IMG/VR virus record: IMGVR_UViG_3300040801_000492
Coordinates: 1 to 20,029 of that record
Length of the DNA: 20,029 nt
Source of the DNA: a virus
Direction: 5' to 3' (one strand)
A program made the position numbers and the translations under genes. Shown piece after piece: positions 1 to 14,810 of this stretch; position 1 is the first letter of the stretch, and each line of letters begins with the position of its first letter. Below the pieces are notes generated by a model. The model saw only the letters and a list, made by a program, of their open reading frames with translations. It searched no databases and was not told the DNA's origin.

Positions 1-111
1 AGTTCCTCGCTCTACCCCTTCACGCCGGTGCGGGTCGGCAAACTCGTCAAAAGATTCCTGACGGCGGGCGGTGCGAGTTCCTCGCTCTACCCCTTCACGC
101 CGGTGCGGGTC
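1..111 (-). repeat. 75-bp (25-codon) tandem repeat, two copies visible
   Basis: Bases 1-36 are identical to bases 76-111, a period of exactly 75 bp that keeps the reading frame. The remaining 39 bp of each period have diverged. On the minus strand the identical part encodes DPHRREGVERGT and the diverged part encodes the ARR-x-E-x-F linker. The array may continue beyond the left edge. Confidence 0.9.
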
Positions 112-342
112 ATTGAACGCGCCGAAATCTTCCTCACGCCGGGCGCCACTGATGCGGATTCCGGTCATTTCCTCTTCGGCTGGGTCAAGGTATCCCTCGC
201 GCCGCAACTGCCGCTGACGGCGATCTCGCAGCCACTCACGATCTTCTTCGCGCTCTTCTGCGTCCTCGCGCATGTCGCGGCCCTCGTAGTAGCCTTTCAG
301 CCCGATGCCGCCGTATTGTGCAAATCTTCCGAACTTGCTCAT
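1..342 (-). CDS. Partial highly charged protein with 25-aa tandem repeats; candidate internal/ejection virion protein
   Basis: The minus strand is open from an ATG at 342 to the window edge, giving 114 residues with no stop, so the C-terminus lies outside. A strong Shine-Dalgarno site (AAGGAG, 6 bases before the ATG) supports the start, 10 bases after the previous stop. The protein begins MSKFGRFAQYGGIG and then becomes very rich in Arg and Glu (residues 20-60), probably helical. From residue 67 a 25-residue unit repeats: unit 1 is 67-91 and unit 2 is 92-114 and continuing. Each unit starts ARR and contains the identical block DPHRREGVERGT. I do not recognise the family. Its position after the tail genes, beside another non-enzymatic candidate virion protein, suggests an internal or ejected protein; this is inference. 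The plus-strand open frame over the same bases (28-408) is an antisense shadow. Confidence 0.8.
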   Translation of the reverse strand, partial: MSKFGRFAQYGGIGLKGYYEGRDMREDAEEREEDREWLRDRRQRQLRREGYLDPAEEEMTGIRISGARREEDFGAFNDPHRREGVERGTRTARRQESFDEFADPHRREGVERGT

Positions 343-352
343 GTTCTGCTCC

Positions 353-1072
353 TTACCAACCCGGATTGTCGTTGCGGCTGTTGCTGTTGCCGGTGCTGCC
401 ATTGTTGAACCAACCTTTCGCACCGTTCCAGATACCACCCCAGTCGATCCCGCCGATGATGTTGCCCCAACCTTGGGCGGCTGCCCCGGCCTGCTGGTTG
501 TAGTAACCGGCGTTGCCGAATGCTGAATTGGCTGAATTTCCGAAGGAATTTGCTACGTTGCCGTAGGCATTCTGAACCGAGTTCGCCTTGTTCGAGCCGA
601 TACCCATGCCTGCACTGTACAGGTCAACGTAACGGCCGTAGCGTTTGTCCTTTGCGCCTTCGCGGGCTTTCGATCGTGCTCCGACGTGCGCGGTTGCCCG
701 CCGGATACCGTAGTCGCGCTGCGACTGCCTGGCGGCGCCGTCGGTCGGCCTGATGCCATACCGGCGCTGATCCCGTTCCTCCATGCCGCGGGCCGTATCG
801 AACGACGTGTTCACATCGCCAGCGATCGCCCCGTAATCGGGTTCCGTGTCATCCATCATGCCCCGGATGTCGTAAAACAGGGGGTCAAACTTCTCTTGAT
901 GGTCGGCATACTGGTCTTTGGCAAATTGCAGCCCTTCGCGCTGCATTTCCAGTTCCTGCTCACGCAGTTGCGCCTCTTGCGCCATCGCCCGATCGGCACG
1001 TCTTGCGTCGCCTCTTGAGGCAAGATAGCCTCCACCGACGGTAATTGCTGCACCTACTGCTACCCAGGCCAT
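353..1072 (-). CDS. Candidate internal virion / DNA ejection protein, Asn/Gly-rich C-terminus
   Basis: 239 residues, with start supported by CAGGAG 8 bases upstream of the ATG. The N-terminus (about residues 2-20, MAWVAVGAAITVGGGYLASR) is a short hydrophobic Gly/Ala/Val segment that could insert in a membrane. Residues 22-65 form a charged, Gln/Glu-rich probable helix or coiled coil. The C-terminal third (about 157-239) is low complexity, with Asn/Ala/Gly repeats (variants of N-x-FGNSA) followed by a Trp-Gly-rich stretch (GWGNIIGGIDWGGIW). Short-tailed phages commonly encode proteins with a small glycine-rich hydrophobic N-terminus and a low-complexity tail among their ejected internal proteins, after the tail hub genes. 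No specific family is recognised, so the role rests on composition and position. The stop is 10 bases from the next ATG. Confidence 0.75.
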   Translation of the reverse strand: MAWVAVGAAITVGGGYLASRGDARRADRAMAQEAQLREQELEMQREGLQFAKDQYADHQEKFDPLFYDIRGMMDDTEPDYGAIAGDVNTSFDTARGMEERDQRRYGIRPTDGAARQSQRDYGIRRATAHVGARSKAREGAKDKRYGRYVDLYSAGMGIGSNKANSVQNAYGNVANSFGNSANSAFGNAGYYNQQAGAAAQGWGNIIGGIDWGGIWNGAKGWFNNGSTGNSNSRNDNPGW

Positions 1073-1075
1073 GTT

Positions 1076-1534
1076 TTATTTCTCCTGTTTCAGTAATTCC
1101 AGATTTTCGGACTCAATTGCATCAAAACTTGGGGCGATCAATCGCTCTTCGAGTTTGGACATATTTTGAGTATTCTCTTCGTTCGGATGCGGGTTCATGA
1201 CGACCGTATCCGTGACGGCGAACGCGGCTTTCTTGGTTCCCGGTTCCGAAACGAACACCGCCGGGCCGGTGATCTCTTTGACGCCTTCTTCGGTCGTGAT
1301 CCTCACCGTGCCGCTGGCGATGATGGTCAGGTGTCGCGTCTTGTGAATTTTTCCTACTGCAACCATACCGGCCGGTATCAATACTTCACGAAGATAAATA
1401 CCATCGGCAAAGTGATGCTTGGTCAGTACGTTGAAATCCACCGGGGGGAGTTGGGTGCGAATAGCATCCTCCAACTCCATGATCTGCTCTCTGGAAACCG
1501 GGTGCTTGCTTTCTTTTTGGATCAGGTCACTCAT
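1076..1534 (-). CDS. Cupin-like phage protein, probably virion-associated
   Basis: 152 residues. The start chosen is the ATG at 1534, in an ATGA overlap with the stop of the preceding gene and preceded by GGGGA at short spacing. The frame stays open further upstream, but that stretch lies inside the preceding gene and its translation is Arg-rich and unlike a real protein. Residues 46-115 show the alternating strand-turn pattern of a small cupin barrel: YLREVLIPAGMVAVG, then KIHKTRHLTIIASG, then VRITTEEG-VKEITGPAVFVSEPG, then KKAAFAVTDTVVMNPHP. His64, His68 and His116 could be metal ligands, but the usual cupin metal motif is not complete. The C-terminus is acidic and helical. Cupin-like proteins of unknown role are found in tail regions of several phages. 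The gene lies between the J-like protein and the candidate ejection proteins, so a structural or host-surface role is more likely than metabolism. Confidence 0.8.
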   Translation of the reverse strand: MSDLIQKESKHPVSREQIMELEDAIRTQLPPVDFNVLTKHHFADGIYLREVLIPAGMVAVGKIHKTRHLTIIASGTVRITTEEGVKEITGPAVFVSEPGTKKAAFAVTDTVVMNPHPNEENTQNMSKLEERLIAPSFDAIESENLELLKQEK

Positions 1535-3570
1535 CGTATCCCCATGACGATGCCGTTGCGGTAGCCGGTTTTCGGTGCAAATCCATCGAATCCGGCAATT
1601 TGAAGTCTGAACTTGCTTTGCACGAACACGCGCGATGCCACGCCAACGAGCACCTTCGTCTCGCCGTAGTAGCGGATGTCGTAGACCGACTGTGAAACAG
1701 TCGTCCAGCCCGCACCCGAATGAGATTGGAATTGCAACCGGGCGCAACCGGCCTGCTGGTTGGTGCCGTACAGTGAGAACGCGACGTTGCAGTATGGGAC
1801 ATGCCCGCTATCGAACGGCGGCGCCGGACACGCCCACTCGCCCACGGTTTTCCATGTCGTATCGGAAATGCCAGAAAGCGTGACGCCTTTCGGGACGACG
1901 TTGGCCGTGTGAATCGAATTGTCTTGAATAAGCGTCGTGCGCGAGATTTCGCCTGAAACAAATTCAGCTTCGAGTTTTCCTTTGAAACGGGCCTCGCCGT
2001 TATTGTCAACCCAGAATGCAAAATTCTCGTTGCTCTTGCTCTTGGTTCCAGTACCAGCCCAAAGCAGAAATTCATCGGCCGGGCCGCCGAGTTCCAGGCG
2101 CCATTCGCCTGCACCAAAGTTTCCCGCAAAAAACTTACCTGCGCCAGTCACATACAACTCACCGGCCAGTTTCAGCGTGCCGCCTTTTTCAAAGTAGAAC
2201 ACGCTGCCCGAGCCGCCGGTCGTGCCGTGGCCGAACCACAACGGGAACAGTTCGTTTTCAGATCCTTCGCCGTTGATTTCGAGCCGGAAATTCGGGTCAA
2301 CACTGGTTGCAAATGAGCCGCCGATGATGTGATCGGCTTCCATCAGGTCGGCATAGACCTCTTGCGCATTCAGTTGCTGCGTGCCGATCTGGCCCGCCTG
2401 AATCATGTTGGCCGTGATCGAACCGTCTACGATGAGTTCGCCGTTGATGCCAACAGTAGCCAGGCCGTCTCGCACGTCAACAATGAACGGATACGCATAA
2501 CGCCATCCGTTATACCAAGGGTTGTTCACGTCGTAGACGTAACCGCCGATCGCGAACGTGCCGACGTTGACGATGAAAGAACTGCCGGACTCTCGCGTCA
2601 CGCCATCCTCGCCAATGCGAGAAAACGCGGAAAGGCCGAACCCGGCGACGTGGCCGTTTGCGTCTACGCGGATCGTGTACTCGCCCGCGGCGTAACCGTC
2701 GCTACTGTTGACCGCCGTGCTGGCGGTCTGCGCAATCGCGGCGTAGATGCCCGATGCGTCCGTGCTGGCTTGCAGGATGCGCTCTTGCACGGATGTCGTG
2801 AACGGGTTGTCCGGGTCGTCCGGGTTGTAATCCACAAGGTCGATGCGGCTGTTCAGCGTTTCGACCAAATGCCCTTCATGAATCTGCCCGGCCAGCAGGC
2901 CGAGGGCGTAAGCCGGATCAATAGCCGTCTCGCCGCGAATGCCATCTTCCCAGAAGTACGGATTCGGGTCGCTGCGATCTACCTCGCCTTTGTTCTCGTC
3001 GTAGTTGTCTTCCCACGCCACCCAGTAGTAACGCACGCCGGGCGCAATCTCGCCCTCTGCGCCACTTGAAAGGCCGAGGCCGGTGTGTGTGAAAAAGTTC
3101 GTGGTGGAATAGCCGACGATGGTCGCATTGTCGAAACTCGGCGTCGCAGACGCCCAGATGACCGCCCGCTTCCAATAGGTGTTCGTGCCTTTTGCGTCCG
3201 GCCAGTCCCACATGACCTGAATGCCGTCCCAGACGGCAAAGGTGCGCACATTCAGCGGCCGTCCTGGCAGCACCAGTCCATCATACGACGGTGGCCTGAG
3301 AAACGACGAGTTCGGGCCGGGAATGGACGTGTCCGGCAACGGGCTGCCGGTTCCACCGAGCATCCCGCGTGAGCCGATCTGTGAGCCGTCGAACCGAATG
3401 TCTGCAATCCTGCCGTCTTTCAGGTCGCGAAACGTCACCTTGGCGTCCAACGGATCGCCGCGGCGCATTTCGCCGACTTCCATCGCCTCTTTCATGGCGA
3501 GAACGACTTCCAGCAAATTACCCTCTGTCGGTTCGGGTATCGCGGGGATTTTTGTTTTACGGACTCCCAT
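1531..3570 (-). CDS. Tail tip / fibre protein with phage-J (DUF1983)-like central region
   Basis: 679 residues. The start ATG overlaps the preceding stop by one base (TAATG). Residues 1-70 are a charged leader. Residues 108-200 look like a fibronectin-III-type sandwich (FAVWDGIQVMWDWP ... GVRYYWVAWEDN). Residues 225-290 are helical. Residues 298-402 match the pattern of the DUF1983 region at the C-terminal end of lambda-J-type tip proteins: YTIRVDANGHVAGFGLS, SFIVNVGTFAIG, PFIVDVRDGLATVGING, then VDGSITANMIQAGQIGT. Residues 429-476 and 491-538 look like two copies of one beta-rich unit. The rest (about 555-679) is a beta-rich C-terminal domain that could bind the receptor. In J proteins this region supports host recognition at the tail tip. 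It follows the hub gene directly, consistent with a distal tail part. The exact host ligand cannot be inferred. Confidence 0.85.
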   Translation of the reverse strand: MGVRKTKIPAIPEPTEGNLLEVVLAMKEAMEVGEMRRGDPLDAKVTFRDLKDGRIADIRFDGSQIGSRGMLGGTGSPLPDTSIPGPNSSFLRPPSYDGLVLPGRPLNVRTFAVWDGIQVMWDWPDAKGTNTYWKRAVIWASATPSFDNATIVGYSTTNFFTHTGLGLSSGAEGEIAPGVRYYWVAWEDNYDENKGEVDRSDPNPYFWEDGIRGETAIDPAYALGLLAGQIHEGHLVETLNSRIDLVDYNPDDPDNPFTTSVQERILQASTDASGIYAAIAQTASTAVNSSDGYAAGEYTIRVDANGHVAGFGLSAFSRIGEDGVTRESGSSFIVNVGTFAIGGYVYDVNNPWYNGWRYAYPFIVDVRDGLATVGINGELIVDGSITANMIQAGQIGTQQLNAQEVYADLMEADHIIGGSFATSVDPNFRLEINGEGSENELFPLWFGHGTTGGSGSVFYFEKGGTLKLAGELYVTGAGKFFAGNFGAGEWRLELGGPADEFLLWAGTGTKSKSNENFAFWVDNNGEARFKGKLEAEFVSGEISRTTLIQDNSIHTANVVPKGVTLSGISDTTWKTVGEWACPAPPFDSGHVPYCNVAFSLYGTNQQAGCARLQFQSHSGAGWTTVSQSVYDIRYYGETKVLVGVASRVFVQSKFRLQIAGFDGFAPKTGYRNGIVMGIR

Positions 3571-9883: not shown

Positions 9884-10855
9884 TTAGGCATTCTCGGTTG
9901 CGCTGGCGTACAGCAGGCCGAGGGCTTCCGGCTTGATGACTTCGTAGCCGTAGACCTTGAGGCCGCGGTGGATGTCGCCGAACGTGGCGGTCGAGCGCAC
10001 CGTCTCGTTCTTGGTGAACTGACCGGCAAAGGTCAGTGCCGAACGGTGGCCGAACAGGCAGTTCGTGACGTTCGCCGAAGCGGGCGTGCCACTGGTGTCT
10101 GCCGTTACGTCAAGCAGGTTCGAGCGATAAATCTCGAAGCGGTCGATCATGCCGATGCGGCCGTTGCGCAGGATGGACGTACCATCACCGGACAAGCTTG
10201 CATCCTGAAGATCGGACTTCTTGATCATGCCGCACATCCACGCCGGGAGAACCATGAAGCGGTCGCTCTCGGGGACGTTCTGCTCGTCGAGAACCGTGCC
10301 GCAATCCACGATCTTGTCGAGGATGTTGGCCTTGGTCACTTCCACCCACGCGCCGGTGGCGCCGAGATCAACGTTGCCGCTGATGGCACCGGCGGTCGCG
10401 CCAGCGTTGTCGCTGTCCACGTCGGCCGGGATGTCGGCCAGGACGCCGGAATCAACGGCGATCTTGACCTGCTCGGATGCGTCGCGCGTCCAGTCCTCGA
10501 CGTGATCGTAATCCGTCTGATGACTGTCAACGTCCTCATCCAAGAAGGCCCAGTATTTGCCGTGGCTGATTTCCAGCGTCACGATCGCGGGCTGCGGGTT
10601 CTCGATCGTCAGATCGACGCCCTTGGTGTAATCCCGAACGGTGATCGAGGGGGTCGTGCGAATCTTGACGGTATCGCCCTGACTCTTGATCTCACCCTCG
10701 TACTCGGTGTTCGAGATCGCGGGAACGACACTGGCCTCGTAGAACTTGACCAGCAGTTTGCCACTCCACAACTGCGGAATGGTGACGCCTGTCCGGGTCG
10801 GGTTGTAAGTCCCATGCGCCGGAGAGGTCGTATTGGCATTGGCAATAACGGCCAT
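9884..10855 (-). CDS. Major capsid (coat) protein, HK97-fold type
   Basis: 323 residues, with start supported by AAAGGAG eight bases upstream. It is directly downstream of the scaffold candidate and ends in a strong terminator, the usual setting for the most abundant virion protein. Features expected for a P22/HK97-like coat: an N-arm (AVIANANTTSPAHGTYNPTR), a first strand region with a long E-loop-like stretch (SNTEYEGEIKSQGDTVKIRT ... ITVRDYTKG), a helix-rich middle (DYDHVEDWTRDASEQVKIAV), a P-domain-like segment containing DRFMVLPAWMCGMIKKSD, the coat-type turn RNGRIGMIDRFEIYRSN, and a C-terminal HRSALTFAGQFTKNE ... GLKVYGYEVIKPEALGLLY. The last two are characteristic of podovirus coat proteins. 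It lacks a protease-type N-terminal delta domain, consistent with a separate scaffold. Confidence 0.93.
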   Translation of the reverse strand: MAVIANANTTSPAHGTYNPTRTGVTIPQLWSGKLLVKFYEASVVPAISNTEYEGEIKSQGDTVKIRTTPSITVRDYTKGVDLTIENPQPAIVTLEISHGKYWAFLDEDVDSHQTDYDHVEDWTRDASEQVKIAVDSGVLADIPADVDSDNAGATAGAISGNVDLGATGAWVEVTKANILDKIVDCGTVLDEQNVPESDRFMVLPAWMCGMIKKSDLQDASLSGDGTSILRNGRIGMIDRFEIYRSNLLDVTADTSGTPASANVTNCLFGHRSALTFAGQFTKNETVRSTATFGDIHRGLKVYGYEVIKPEALGLLYASATENA

Positions 10856-10863
10856 GATGATGA

Positions 10864-10870
10864 CTCCTTT
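10864..10870 (-). promoter_or_regulatory. Capsid gene ribosome-binding site, partly inside a hairpin
   Basis: AAAGGAG lies eight bases before the capsid ATG. Its first five bases (AAAGG, 10866-10870) are the end of the 3' arm of the 11-bp hairpin at 10866-10907, leaving only AG unpaired when the hairpin forms. Confidence 0.85.
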
Positions 10871-10907
10871 GGGTTTGGTTGCAAATGACTGCCTGAAAAC
10901 CCAAAGG
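10866..10907 (-). promoter_or_regulatory. Perfect 11-bp hairpin in the capsid leader, overlapping its Shine-Dalgarno site
   Basis: CCTTTGGGTTT at minus-strand 10907-10897 pairs perfectly with AAACCCAAAGG at 10876-10866, with a 20-base loop. It fills the spacer between scaffold stop (10934) and capsid ATG (10855). No U tract follows, so it is not a classic terminator. It could control capsid translation, be an RNase III-type processing site, or protect the 5' end of a processed capsid mRNA. Confidence 0.8.
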
Positions 10908-10933
10908 CGCAGTTAATGCCGGGGCGTGAAGTT

Positions 10934-11953
10934 CTACCTCACGCGACCATCGCGCATCGCCTGCGTGTACTGGGTTTCCAGACGTTTGTCCTCATCGCTG
11001 ATCGGCAGACCTTTGGCACGATTCGCCGCCTGGTTCTTGAAGAACAGGTCAATCTCCTGAGCCGAATACACATTCGTGTCCGGCCGGACTGGCTCGTCGG
11101 TGCGCCCGGTGTTGCCGGGAACGACTTGGGATTCCAATGCCGCGCTGCCGCTTTTGGCTTTGCGTTTGAAGGCTGAAAGCACGCGAATGATCGGGCCTGC
11201 GTCACGCCGGGCTTGTGCTCGGTTAATGACTGCCTGCCGGGGTTCCCCGGTGTTGGGATCAACTTCCTTCAGGTAGTTGCGGAACGAAGCGAGTCCGTTC
11301 ACCTTTTCCCAGTCGGGGTGGGCTTTCCCGATTTCATCGAACATCGCCTGGTCGGCACTTGCCTCGTACTGCTGGTCGATTTCATCAACGCGGGAGAGTT
11401 TTTCGACGGCTTTTTCGAGGGACGCTTGAAGGCGGGCAATCTTTTGCTCCTGCGCCATGTATGCGTCGGCCATTTCGTCGCCGTACATTTCCCGCATTTG
11501 ATCCAGATCGGCCGCTTTTTCCGGCGTTTCCGGGGTCGATGCAGTCTGGTTCTGTTCGAGTGCTTCGAGTTTGCCTTTCAGCCCTTTGATCTCGTCGTGC
11601 AACCGGGGGACTTCGGCGTTGTACTTGCCCTGCAACGTCTGCAACTGGGCCAGCGCCCGGTCGCGGTCGTTTTTCAGTGCTTCCGCTTCTTCCTTCCAGT
11701 TGATGTTGAGATCGTCGTCGGACTGATCCTTCTCATTCGCGCCCGATTCCGGTGTCGGCGGGGTTTCCCCCTCGGTCGGTTCGGGTGGCTGAACTCCTTC
11801 GTTCTCGTTCGATCCGGTATCAGGCGTCGGTTCGCCTTCACTGACGTACTGGCCGGGATCGTCCGGGTTGGTCGGGTTCTTCAGGGCTTCCAGCGCCTTG
11901 TCGGCCGCCTCGCCTTGTTCGCGTACAGCTTTGGGGAGTCTTACTCCTGACAT
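10934..11953 (-). CDS. Scaffolding protein (candidate)
   Basis: 339 residues, with AAGGAG eight bases before the ATG. Residues 28-82 are acidic and rich in Pro, Glu, Asp, Ser and Thr, so probably disordered. Residues 86-135 are a strong coiled coil (WKEEAEALKNDRDRALAQLQ; RLHDEIKGLKGKLEALEQ), with a second helical stretch at 150-200 (MAQEQKIARLQASLEKAVEK). Residues 200-265 are a compact helical part, and the C-terminal end is charged (SDEDKRLETQYTQAMRDGRV). Scaffolds are typically acidic, elongated and coiled-coil, with a coat-binding helical C-terminus, and are encoded immediately before the coat gene, as here. Sequence alone does not identify a named family, so the call rests on composition and gene order. 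Confidence 0.85.
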   Translation of the reverse strand: MSGVRLPKAVREQGEAADKALEALKNPTNPDDPGQYVSEGEPTPDTGSNENEGVQPPEPTEGETPPTPESGANEKDQSDDDLNINWKEEAEALKNDRDRALAQLQTLQGKYNAEVPRLHDEIKGLKGKLEALEQNQTASTPETPEKAADLDQMREMYGDEMADAYMAQEQKIARLQASLEKAVEKLSRVDEIDQQYEASADQAMFDEIGKAHPDWEKVNGLASFRNYLKEVDPNTGEPRQAVINRAQARRDAGPIIRVLSAFKRKAKSGSAALESQVVPGNTGRTDEPVRPDTNVYSAQEIDLFFKNQAANRAKGLPISDEDKRLETQYTQAMRDGRVR

Positions 11954-12788: not shown

Positions 12789-14810
12789 TTACACTGCTCC
12801 TTGAATTTGCTCCTGCGGTTGTTCTTCCATCGGCCCTTGCTGCGGGTTTTGCTGTTGCTGCATCTGGGCCGCCATCGCCTGCATCAGCATCTGATCGTTC
12901 GACGGCAACACTTTGTCCACGTCCACCGCATCGAGGCCGCGCATACTGGCGCGCAGCAGTTCGAGACGGCCCTTCGCCGACATCAGCGAGAAGTCCACCG
13001 GGTTGTTGGTGGCGGCCAGCGTCTCTGTGACGCGCATCTGCTGCGCCTCACGATGCAAGAGCGCCTGCGATGCTTTCGCGATCACTTCCACGTCGCCCTT
13101 GTTCTCCATTTCGTCGTCGAACAGCATCAGGTGGCGATGTGTCTGCTTCGTCGTGCCGATGATGATCTTGTCCATGTTGCTGATAACGTGCTTCATCGTG
13201 CGCGATGAGGCATTCATCAGCATCGAGAGGCCCGCGGCGGTCTTGCCTGCGCCGCCCACGTCACCCGAGCCGTACTGGTAGCGCGGAATGCCGGTGTACT
13301 CGTCAGCCAGGTTCGAGAAGAACTCGAACACGGCCATCAGTGCCTGCACGTTGCTGTCCGGTTGGAAAAAGCGCACGGCCGGGGCCGGGGTTCCGGTCTT
13401 GTTGGCCTTTGTCTGCACAATGCGCCACGGATAGAGTTTCGTGACTTTTTCGCCGGACGCCAGTCGATCTGCCTCGACCTCGACCATCGGGCCGGATGCG
13501 ATACCCATGTTGTTCGAGATCGCGCGCGCTGCCGCGTCGCACATATTTTGCAGATCATCCATCAGTTCGGGAACACCGCGGCCCCACGGCGAGTTACGCA
13601 CCTTGACGTAGGACGCCATGTGATACGGCCGCTTACCCATTGGATCGTCGTTCAGGGTGGCCCGGATGACGTAGTTGCCGATGATCCAGACGCAGGCGTT
13701 GTACCAACGATCGGGATCGTTGATGTTGTCCATGCCCCACTCGATCAGCCAGGCGCCGCGAACCTTCGTCCAGACTTCGAGCACGTCGATGTCGTTACCA
13801 CCGCCGAGAATCTGTTCATTCGGTCGGCCTTCAAGGCGAGAACGTTCAGAATCGCCCCACAGCCAGTCTTTCAGGCCGGTGTCGGCATGGGTGTCGAGCG
13901 CGCCCCGCAACTGCTCTTCGTCGTAGCCCGGCACGCCGATGAAGTCATACAGAGCGGCCGCCGACATGCGGTGTCGCTCGACCAGTGAACCCTCTTCGGA
14001 GTTCCGTGCTTCGGGCGTCAGATAAATGTCCAGCGGAGAGGCGGCGTACCACGTCCTCTGGAACTTGTTCTTCACTACCGGCTGTAGGGCATTCGGCCGG
14101 GTTGGATCGTTGCTCTGCGCCCACTGGATTGCTTTCTTTGCGTGAATCACCGGGCCTTTGAGGACGGCCGCGGGCAGGTTGACGAAATCCTCGATCAGAT
14201 CGTCAAACGCCTCGTAAAGACCGCCTTCGCGGTATTCGTCGTCGATCTTGTCCTCCATGCGCTCGGCCATCTTCTCGGCCTCACGCTTGGCGTGCTGGCG
14301 CACGATGTCGGTGTACGCCTCGATGCGCTCTCGCACTTCGCGGGGGTTCGGTATCGCGCCTACGATCTGGCGCATTTCCATGTACGCTTCGCGCTCGATC
14401 TCCTGCTGAATCTGCGGCGGGATGTCCGGCAGCGGCGTGGGGTCGCAGGAAAACGGTCTTTCGCCGGTTCCGAGCATCACGTCCTTGATCCATGCGATTG
14501 CAGCCCGGCATTTCACGTCCGTGAGCATCATCTTGATCTCGGAACCACCCATTTGCCGAATCGCTTCCAGTTTCCTCTCTGAATAGCGGCCTTCGCGCTG
14601 GCGCATGGAGCGCAACATGCGTTCCTCGATCGGCTGTTTCGCGTCGCGGGCGCGCTCCCACTCTTTGCGGCAGTGGGCCGCCAAGCGTGAAGTCGGCGTG
14701 GATTCGGTCAGAAGGGCCGCGGCAGCACGTTGTTTTTCCATCGCCTCGGTTGCCTTCATGCGATCCAGTTCGTCATTGTTCATGACTGGGATAATTCCGT
14801 ATTGAGACAT
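12789..14810 (-). CDS. Portal protein
   Basis: 673 residues, close in size to the large P22-type portals. It forms the twelve-fold ring at the packaging vertex, bound by terminase and later by the adaptors. N-terminal helices (residues 15-110) include DVKCRAAIAWIKDVMLGTGERPF, typical of the wing. Residues 130-195 are a charged helical insertion. Residues 245-265 (NKFQRTWYAASPLDIYLTPE) and the strongly conserved portal block at 404-445 (KVRNSPWGRGVPELMDDL; MCDAAARAISNNMGIASGP) identify the core. Residues 480-570 hold a long helix region (FFSNLADEYTGIPRYQYGSG, then a Gly-rich turn and SMLMNASSRTMKHVI) as in the stem and tunnel. The C-terminal 30 residues are Gln/Pro-rich. It starts four bases after the terminase stop. 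The first ATG is used; another in-frame ATG nine codons later has no better ribosome site. Confidence 0.93.
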   Translation of the reverse strand: MSQYGIIPVMNNDELDRMKATEAMEKQRAAAALLTESTPTSRLAAHCRKEWERARDAKQPIEERMLRSMRQREGRYSERKLEAIRQMGGSEIKMMLTDVKCRAAIAWIKDVMLGTGERPFSCDPTPLPDIPPQIQQEIEREAYMEMRQIVGAIPNPREVRERIEAYTDIVRQHAKREAEKMAERMEDKIDDEYREGGLYEAFDDLIEDFVNLPAAVLKGPVIHAKKAIQWAQSNDPTRPNALQPVVKNKFQRTWYAASPLDIYLTPEARNSEEGSLVERHRMSAAALYDFIGVPGYDEEQLRGALDTHADTGLKDWLWGDSERSRLEGRPNEQILGGGNDIDVLEVWTKVRGAWLIEWGMDNINDPDRWYNACVWIIGNYVIRATLNDDPMGKRPYHMASYVKVRNSPWGRGVPELMDDLQNMCDAAARAISNNMGIASGPMVEVEADRLASGEKVTKLYPWRIVQTKANKTGTPAPAVRFFQPDSNVQALMAVFEFFSNLADEYTGIPRYQYGSGDVGGAGKTAAGLSMLMNASSRTMKHVISNMDKIIIGTTKQTHRHLMLFDDEMENKGDVEVIAKASQALLHREAQQMRVTETLAATNNPVDFSLMSAKGRLELLRASMRGLDAVDVDKVLPSNDQMLMQAMAAQMQQQQNPQQGPMEEQPQEQIQGAV

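Follow-up and report, generated by a model that had tools for sequence, protein, structure and literature searches.

The truncated gene and its ejection-module neighbours

With a probability of about 70%, the open reading frame at the left end of the window encodes the beginning of a virion-internal, ejected protein of a podovirus-type phage resembling Bcep22 and phiARM81mr, with a tandem repeat that acts as a spacer. The window, 20,029 bp in length, is a linear virus contig and the whole of its IMG/VR public record, and base 1 is the end of that record. The repeat array is a small, ordinary and probably recent in-frame duplication in a charged, apparently unstructured stretch, and is most likely no different from any duplicated spacer in a fast-evolving ejection-module protein. 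Most of the gene, with its stop codon and any C-terminal domain or further units, lies off the contig. Alignment scans using the tail hub and tip proteins recovered 80 related contigs, of which L010 and L091 (IMGVR_UViG_3300033151_000226) are the closest two; L087 is another relative. The features of the locus are as follows.

1-342, minus strand: first 114 codons of a gene for a probable internal/ejected virion protein, truncated at the contig edge (ATG at 342 with AAGGAG upstream; N-terminus matches L091 and L087)
199-306, minus strand: N-terminal charged helix, residues 13-48 (AlphaFold2 prediction with pLDDT about 67-71 over residues 31-50, and alignment to L087 and L091)
112-186, minus strand: repeat unit u1, decayed, DPAEEEMTGIRISGARREEDFGAFN (37 of 75 nt identical to u2, codon-shuffle p 1.5e-4)
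37-111, minus strand: repeat unit u2, DPHRREGVERGTRTARRQESFDEFA (lag-75 repeat comparison)
1-36, minus strand: repeat unit u3, incomplete at the contig edge, DPHRREGVERGT (equal to the head of u2)
353-1072, minus strand: DNA-ejection-type protein of 239 aa, immediately upstream within the operon (phrog_26383, 2e-12; phrog_21132 'DNA ejection', 1e-5; 45% identical to the syntenic L091 gene)

The sequence-only reading had proposed a truncated, charged reading frame at the window edge that encodes an Arg/Glu-rich protein in the ejection position, and both proposals held up: the frame runs for 114 codons from the ATG at 342 to the contig edge, and it adjoins an ejection-type gene in a podovirus-type gene order. 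On the same strand as the 239-aa ejection-type gene, the truncated gene starts 11 bp downstream of it, and the product of the truncated gene possesses the G-rich N-terminus and subsequent charged helix of a Bcep22-type ejection-module protein, with modest similarity. A 649-aa protein encoded at 3570-5519 matches phrog_511, an internal virion protein, and through this protein the phage is a distant relative of the Bcep22-like (Lessievirus) phages, Ochrobactrum POI1126, Agrobacterium ph08 and Aeromonas phiARM81mr.

A short-tail-fibre-type protein (phrog_12032, 4e-37) is encoded at 1076-1747 on the minus strand of the window. The listed start is a TTG at 1747, well within the tip gene (1531-3570); a likelier start is an ATG near 1534 that overlaps the stop of the tip gene.

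Counterparts in related phages

Single-sequence searches of Pfam, PHROGs, phage records and viral contigs identified no direct homologues of the truncated protein or of its repeated block. A single-sequence scan with the tail hub likewise found no relatives, whereas the alignment scans did, and a search of bacterial genome contigs with the ejection and tip proteins found none. The order of tip gene, ejection gene, truncated-type gene and giant ORF is kept in L091, where the third position is occupied by a 388-aa gene (10708-11874) and the fourth by an ORF of at least 1,975 codons. The N-termini of the two proteins pair up (GLGIRGYYNGKQMR and GIGLKGYYEGRDMR), with an E value of 1e-5 in a pairwise BLASTP comparison and of 0.004 in a six-frame search of the L091 record, and the gene at the matching position in L087 also matches the window protein at its N-terminus (E 1.6e-6). 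When scored with a model of six such N-termini from which the window was left out, the window protein tied with one of 2,000 shuffles and exceeded all the others. This narrower model did better than a broad N-terminal profile built on distant counterparts, which matched the window weakly (2.8 bits).

The 388-aa gene of L091 resembles the truncated gene in its position after the ejection protein, in its N-terminus and in the charged, near-neutral stretch that follows the helix, but it does not contain a tandem array at the DNA level. Its RRDE-type motifs are irregular, lying 18-28 residues apart, and match the unit of the window weakly.

In the Lessievirus phage JC1, gp64 (ejection), gp68 and gp69 (giant) are the counterparts by position of the ejection gene, the truncated gene and the giant ORF, and all three were detected in purified virions by mass spectrometry (PMC9144972). 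The product of the truncated gene is itself a probable virion component that is injected along with the phage DNA. JC1 gp68 and BcepIL02 gp69 (phrog_9667, virion structural protein) lie between ejection-module genes and a giant DarB-like gene and exhibit a G-rich N-terminus followed by a linker; however, this linker is Pro/Ala-rich, whereas that of the window is Arg/Glu-rich, and other genes separate the two from the ejection gene. The phrog_9667 profile matched neither the window protein nor L091, and hhalign comparisons with eight members were insignificant, so the relationship claimed here is limited to position and N-terminal kinship and does not extend to membership of the family.

Geometry of the repeat array

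Bases 1-36 recur without change at 76-111, a spacing of 75 bp that preserves the minus-strand reading frame, and both copies translate to DPHRREGVERGT in that frame, which confirms the exact 36-bp match, its period and its peptide as they had been read from the sequence alone. Beyond the block, the lag-75 match extends with reduced identity as far as base 145 and is 84% identical over 70 bp overall. All 15 lag-75 mismatches fall within 37-75, and a clean run of at least 36 bases arises in about 1 in 5,000 random placements. Because the record stops at base 1, the block has no defined left edge and is at least 36 bp long. No further copies of the block with up to three mismatches are present in the window, and none were present in shuffles either.

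The unit is 25 codons in length and, in coding order, the array consists of u1 (186-112), u2 (111-37) and u3 (36-1, cut). Identity decreases in steps from 100% between u3 and the head of u2, to 62% between the tails of u2 and u1, and to 36%, near background, between the heads of u2 and u1. The overall similarity of u1 and u2 comes from the last 39 nt of u1, of which 24 are identical, and the head of u1 is not significant alone (13 of 36 nt, p 0.18; 12 aa, p 0.055). In its tail, u1 is a decayed repeat copy; the status of its head is uncertain.

Three other interpretations of the repeat were rejected. A CRISPR-like array of 36-bp repeats and 39-bp 'spacers' was dropped because the 'spacers' are 62% alike, are in frame and keep the coding pattern; a terminal direct repeat of a complete genome was ruled out, as none of at least 11 bp is present; and a DNA hairpin was ruled out by a stability below that of shuffles (z +1.2).

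Origin of the identical block

The block had been described as an identical stretch beside 39 diverged bases in each of two adjacent periods. Both stretches are real, but they compare different pairs of units, u3 with u2 and u2 with u1, so the comparison reveals one breakpoint only and not a conserved island inside each period. The best single breakpoint in identity lies at base 36, with 100% identity up to and including that base and 46% across the next 114 bases. An array with an old, decayed unit at its edge and a fresh tandem duplication inside would look like this.

Within the block, 0 of 12 codons differ between u3 and u2, although 3.5 million synonymous spellings are possible, whereas 3 of the 6 residue-conserved codons in the tails of u1 and u2 differ synonymously. 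Selection on the peptide would leave synonymous change free and none is seen in the block, so recent copying is the better reading. This comparison of codons inside the block and in the older copy favours recency over the strong selection that had been suggested. The sequence-only reading had also raised recent recombination or gene conversion, and here the recent copying event stands while gene conversion is not needed, because one breakpoint is visible. That breakpoint fits both processes, and duplication is the simpler.

It is improbable that the block (DPHRREGVERGT) serves as a functional motif kept constant in many units by gene conversion or selection while the remaining 39 bp diverge. 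In favour of this reading, the exact identity stops sharply at base 36, but the identical and diverged stretches belong to different unit pairs, the contig edge cuts the block, the head of u1 does not carry the motif (DPAEEEMTGIRI), and synonymous change would persist under selection on the peptide. There is a similarly small chance that the final 36 bp arose as an artefact of assembly. Contig ends are the least reliable part of short-read assemblies, the repeat reaches the very end of the record, and an artefact would leave one full unit and a decayed neighbour only; however, the copies stay in frame, and the older pair (37-75 and 112-150) is 15 substitutions apart and is no artefact.

Predicted structure and composition of the array

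AlphaFold2 models of the window protein and the L091 protein are both weak (pTM 0.21 and 0.24). In the window protein, a helix is predicted at residues 13-48 and the array is mostly low-confidence coil, with pLDDT near or under 50; in L091, a long N-terminal helix gives way to a charged stretch of low confidence (84-193), after which the C-terminus is again helical. On these models, the array stretch is probably disordered. Its residues are 45% charged and 19% Arg, and its net charge is -0.06 per residue. The repeat had been suggested to bind DNA or to form an injected filament, and neither idea gained support: the array does not have the net positive charge of a basic DNA-binding repeat protein, its near-neutral charge speaking against DNA binding, and a filament is not indicated because the array is predicted to be mostly low-confidence coil.

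A broader version of this idea, in which the 25-residue units are joined into an uninterrupted coiled coil, a filament or a DNA-binding surface and are injected along with the genome, is likewise improbable. It is consistent with the Arg content, with a significant 25-residue period in the window protein in which Phe positions are conserved, and with the 11-residue periods of some counterparts, but a net charge of about zero and the predicted coil argue against it, and the Asp-Pro and Gly in every unit would fit a continuous helix poorly.

The charged region of counterparts in L034 (e.g. EAREGRQEVREVAREGRAQQR), L038, L018, L060 and L045 exhibits an 11-residue period, suggesting hendecad coiled coils in these proteins.

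The site of the array varies among the counterparts. The matching site is a Pro/Ala-rich linker in gp69 of the Lessievirus BcepIL02, and it contains P/Q-rich 27-bp repeats in L087. Arrays at the DNA level are present in 3 of 27 counterpart genes and are no commoner there than elsewhere in those loci, and self-similarity at the protein level is weakly enriched in the counterparts (14 of 27 versus 51 of 162, p 0.05). The site looks like a tolerant linker, and a habit of array expansion is not supported by the counterpart counts. The amino-acid tandem repeats of Borg elements similarly arise from recent in-frame DNA repeats and are mostly disordered (PMC9879509); however, these elements are unrelated and their arrays are pervasive and A-enriched, whereas the window possesses one long-period array only.

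Proposed mechanism and implications

The charged stretch would be a disordered spacer ahead of an off-contig, helical C-terminal domain, as in L091, and may have grown as slippage or unequal recombination duplicated 75-bp units in frame, with units 2 and 3 as young copies and unit 1 as an old one. The repeat would have no sequence-specific task and would determine how long and how flexible a tether is. By analogy with the ejection proteins of the T7 and P22 types (reviewed in PMC8954989), the protein may be packed in the head, unfold, pass through the tail and join a conduit across the periplasm, and a charged tether of this kind would be expected to tolerate duplication. It is improbable that the array continues with several young units, differing in number among the genomes of one phage population, and that slippage thereby adjusts the length of the ejected tether to the envelope of the host. 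Were the copy number to vary, the locus would offer a natural length series for testing what sets the reach of the ejection conduit. With this gene, the ejection module of Bcep22-like phages, so far poorly described, gains one diverged member, and the repeat illustrates that a simple recent duplication at a contig edge can resemble a conserved mosaic.

Other observations in related ejection modules

A short motif is duplicated within the first 130 residues of 6 of 23 giant ejection-module proteins, compared with 5 of 74 segments from other parts of these proteins (Fisher p 0.02), and the motif is different in each phage. The ORFs concerned start at 16260 in L010, 15415 in L015, 16367 in L016, 16532 in L018, 15040 in L049 and 13372 in L060, and examples of the motifs are LDSSRFEPADSPKAGQ, PIRLxRAPWxxP, YQPLFxD and FDxAKARAxxKxDTQIAxYLxK. 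These duplicated N-terminal motifs could be multivalent capsid- or portal-loading motifs.

Extra genes related to sulfur are present in or beside the ejection module of L010, L091 and BcepIL02. The L010 gene (14453-15022) matches Sulfotransfer_4; the L091 gene (7375-8001) encodes a PRSGTAW protein that looks similar to the L010 protein and has no Pfam match; and BcepIL02 (L007, 15267-15986) encodes a PAPS reductase. In L087, a radical SAM protein (PF04055, 5e-14) is encoded at 13196-14461 within the ejection module, just before the ejection-type gene.
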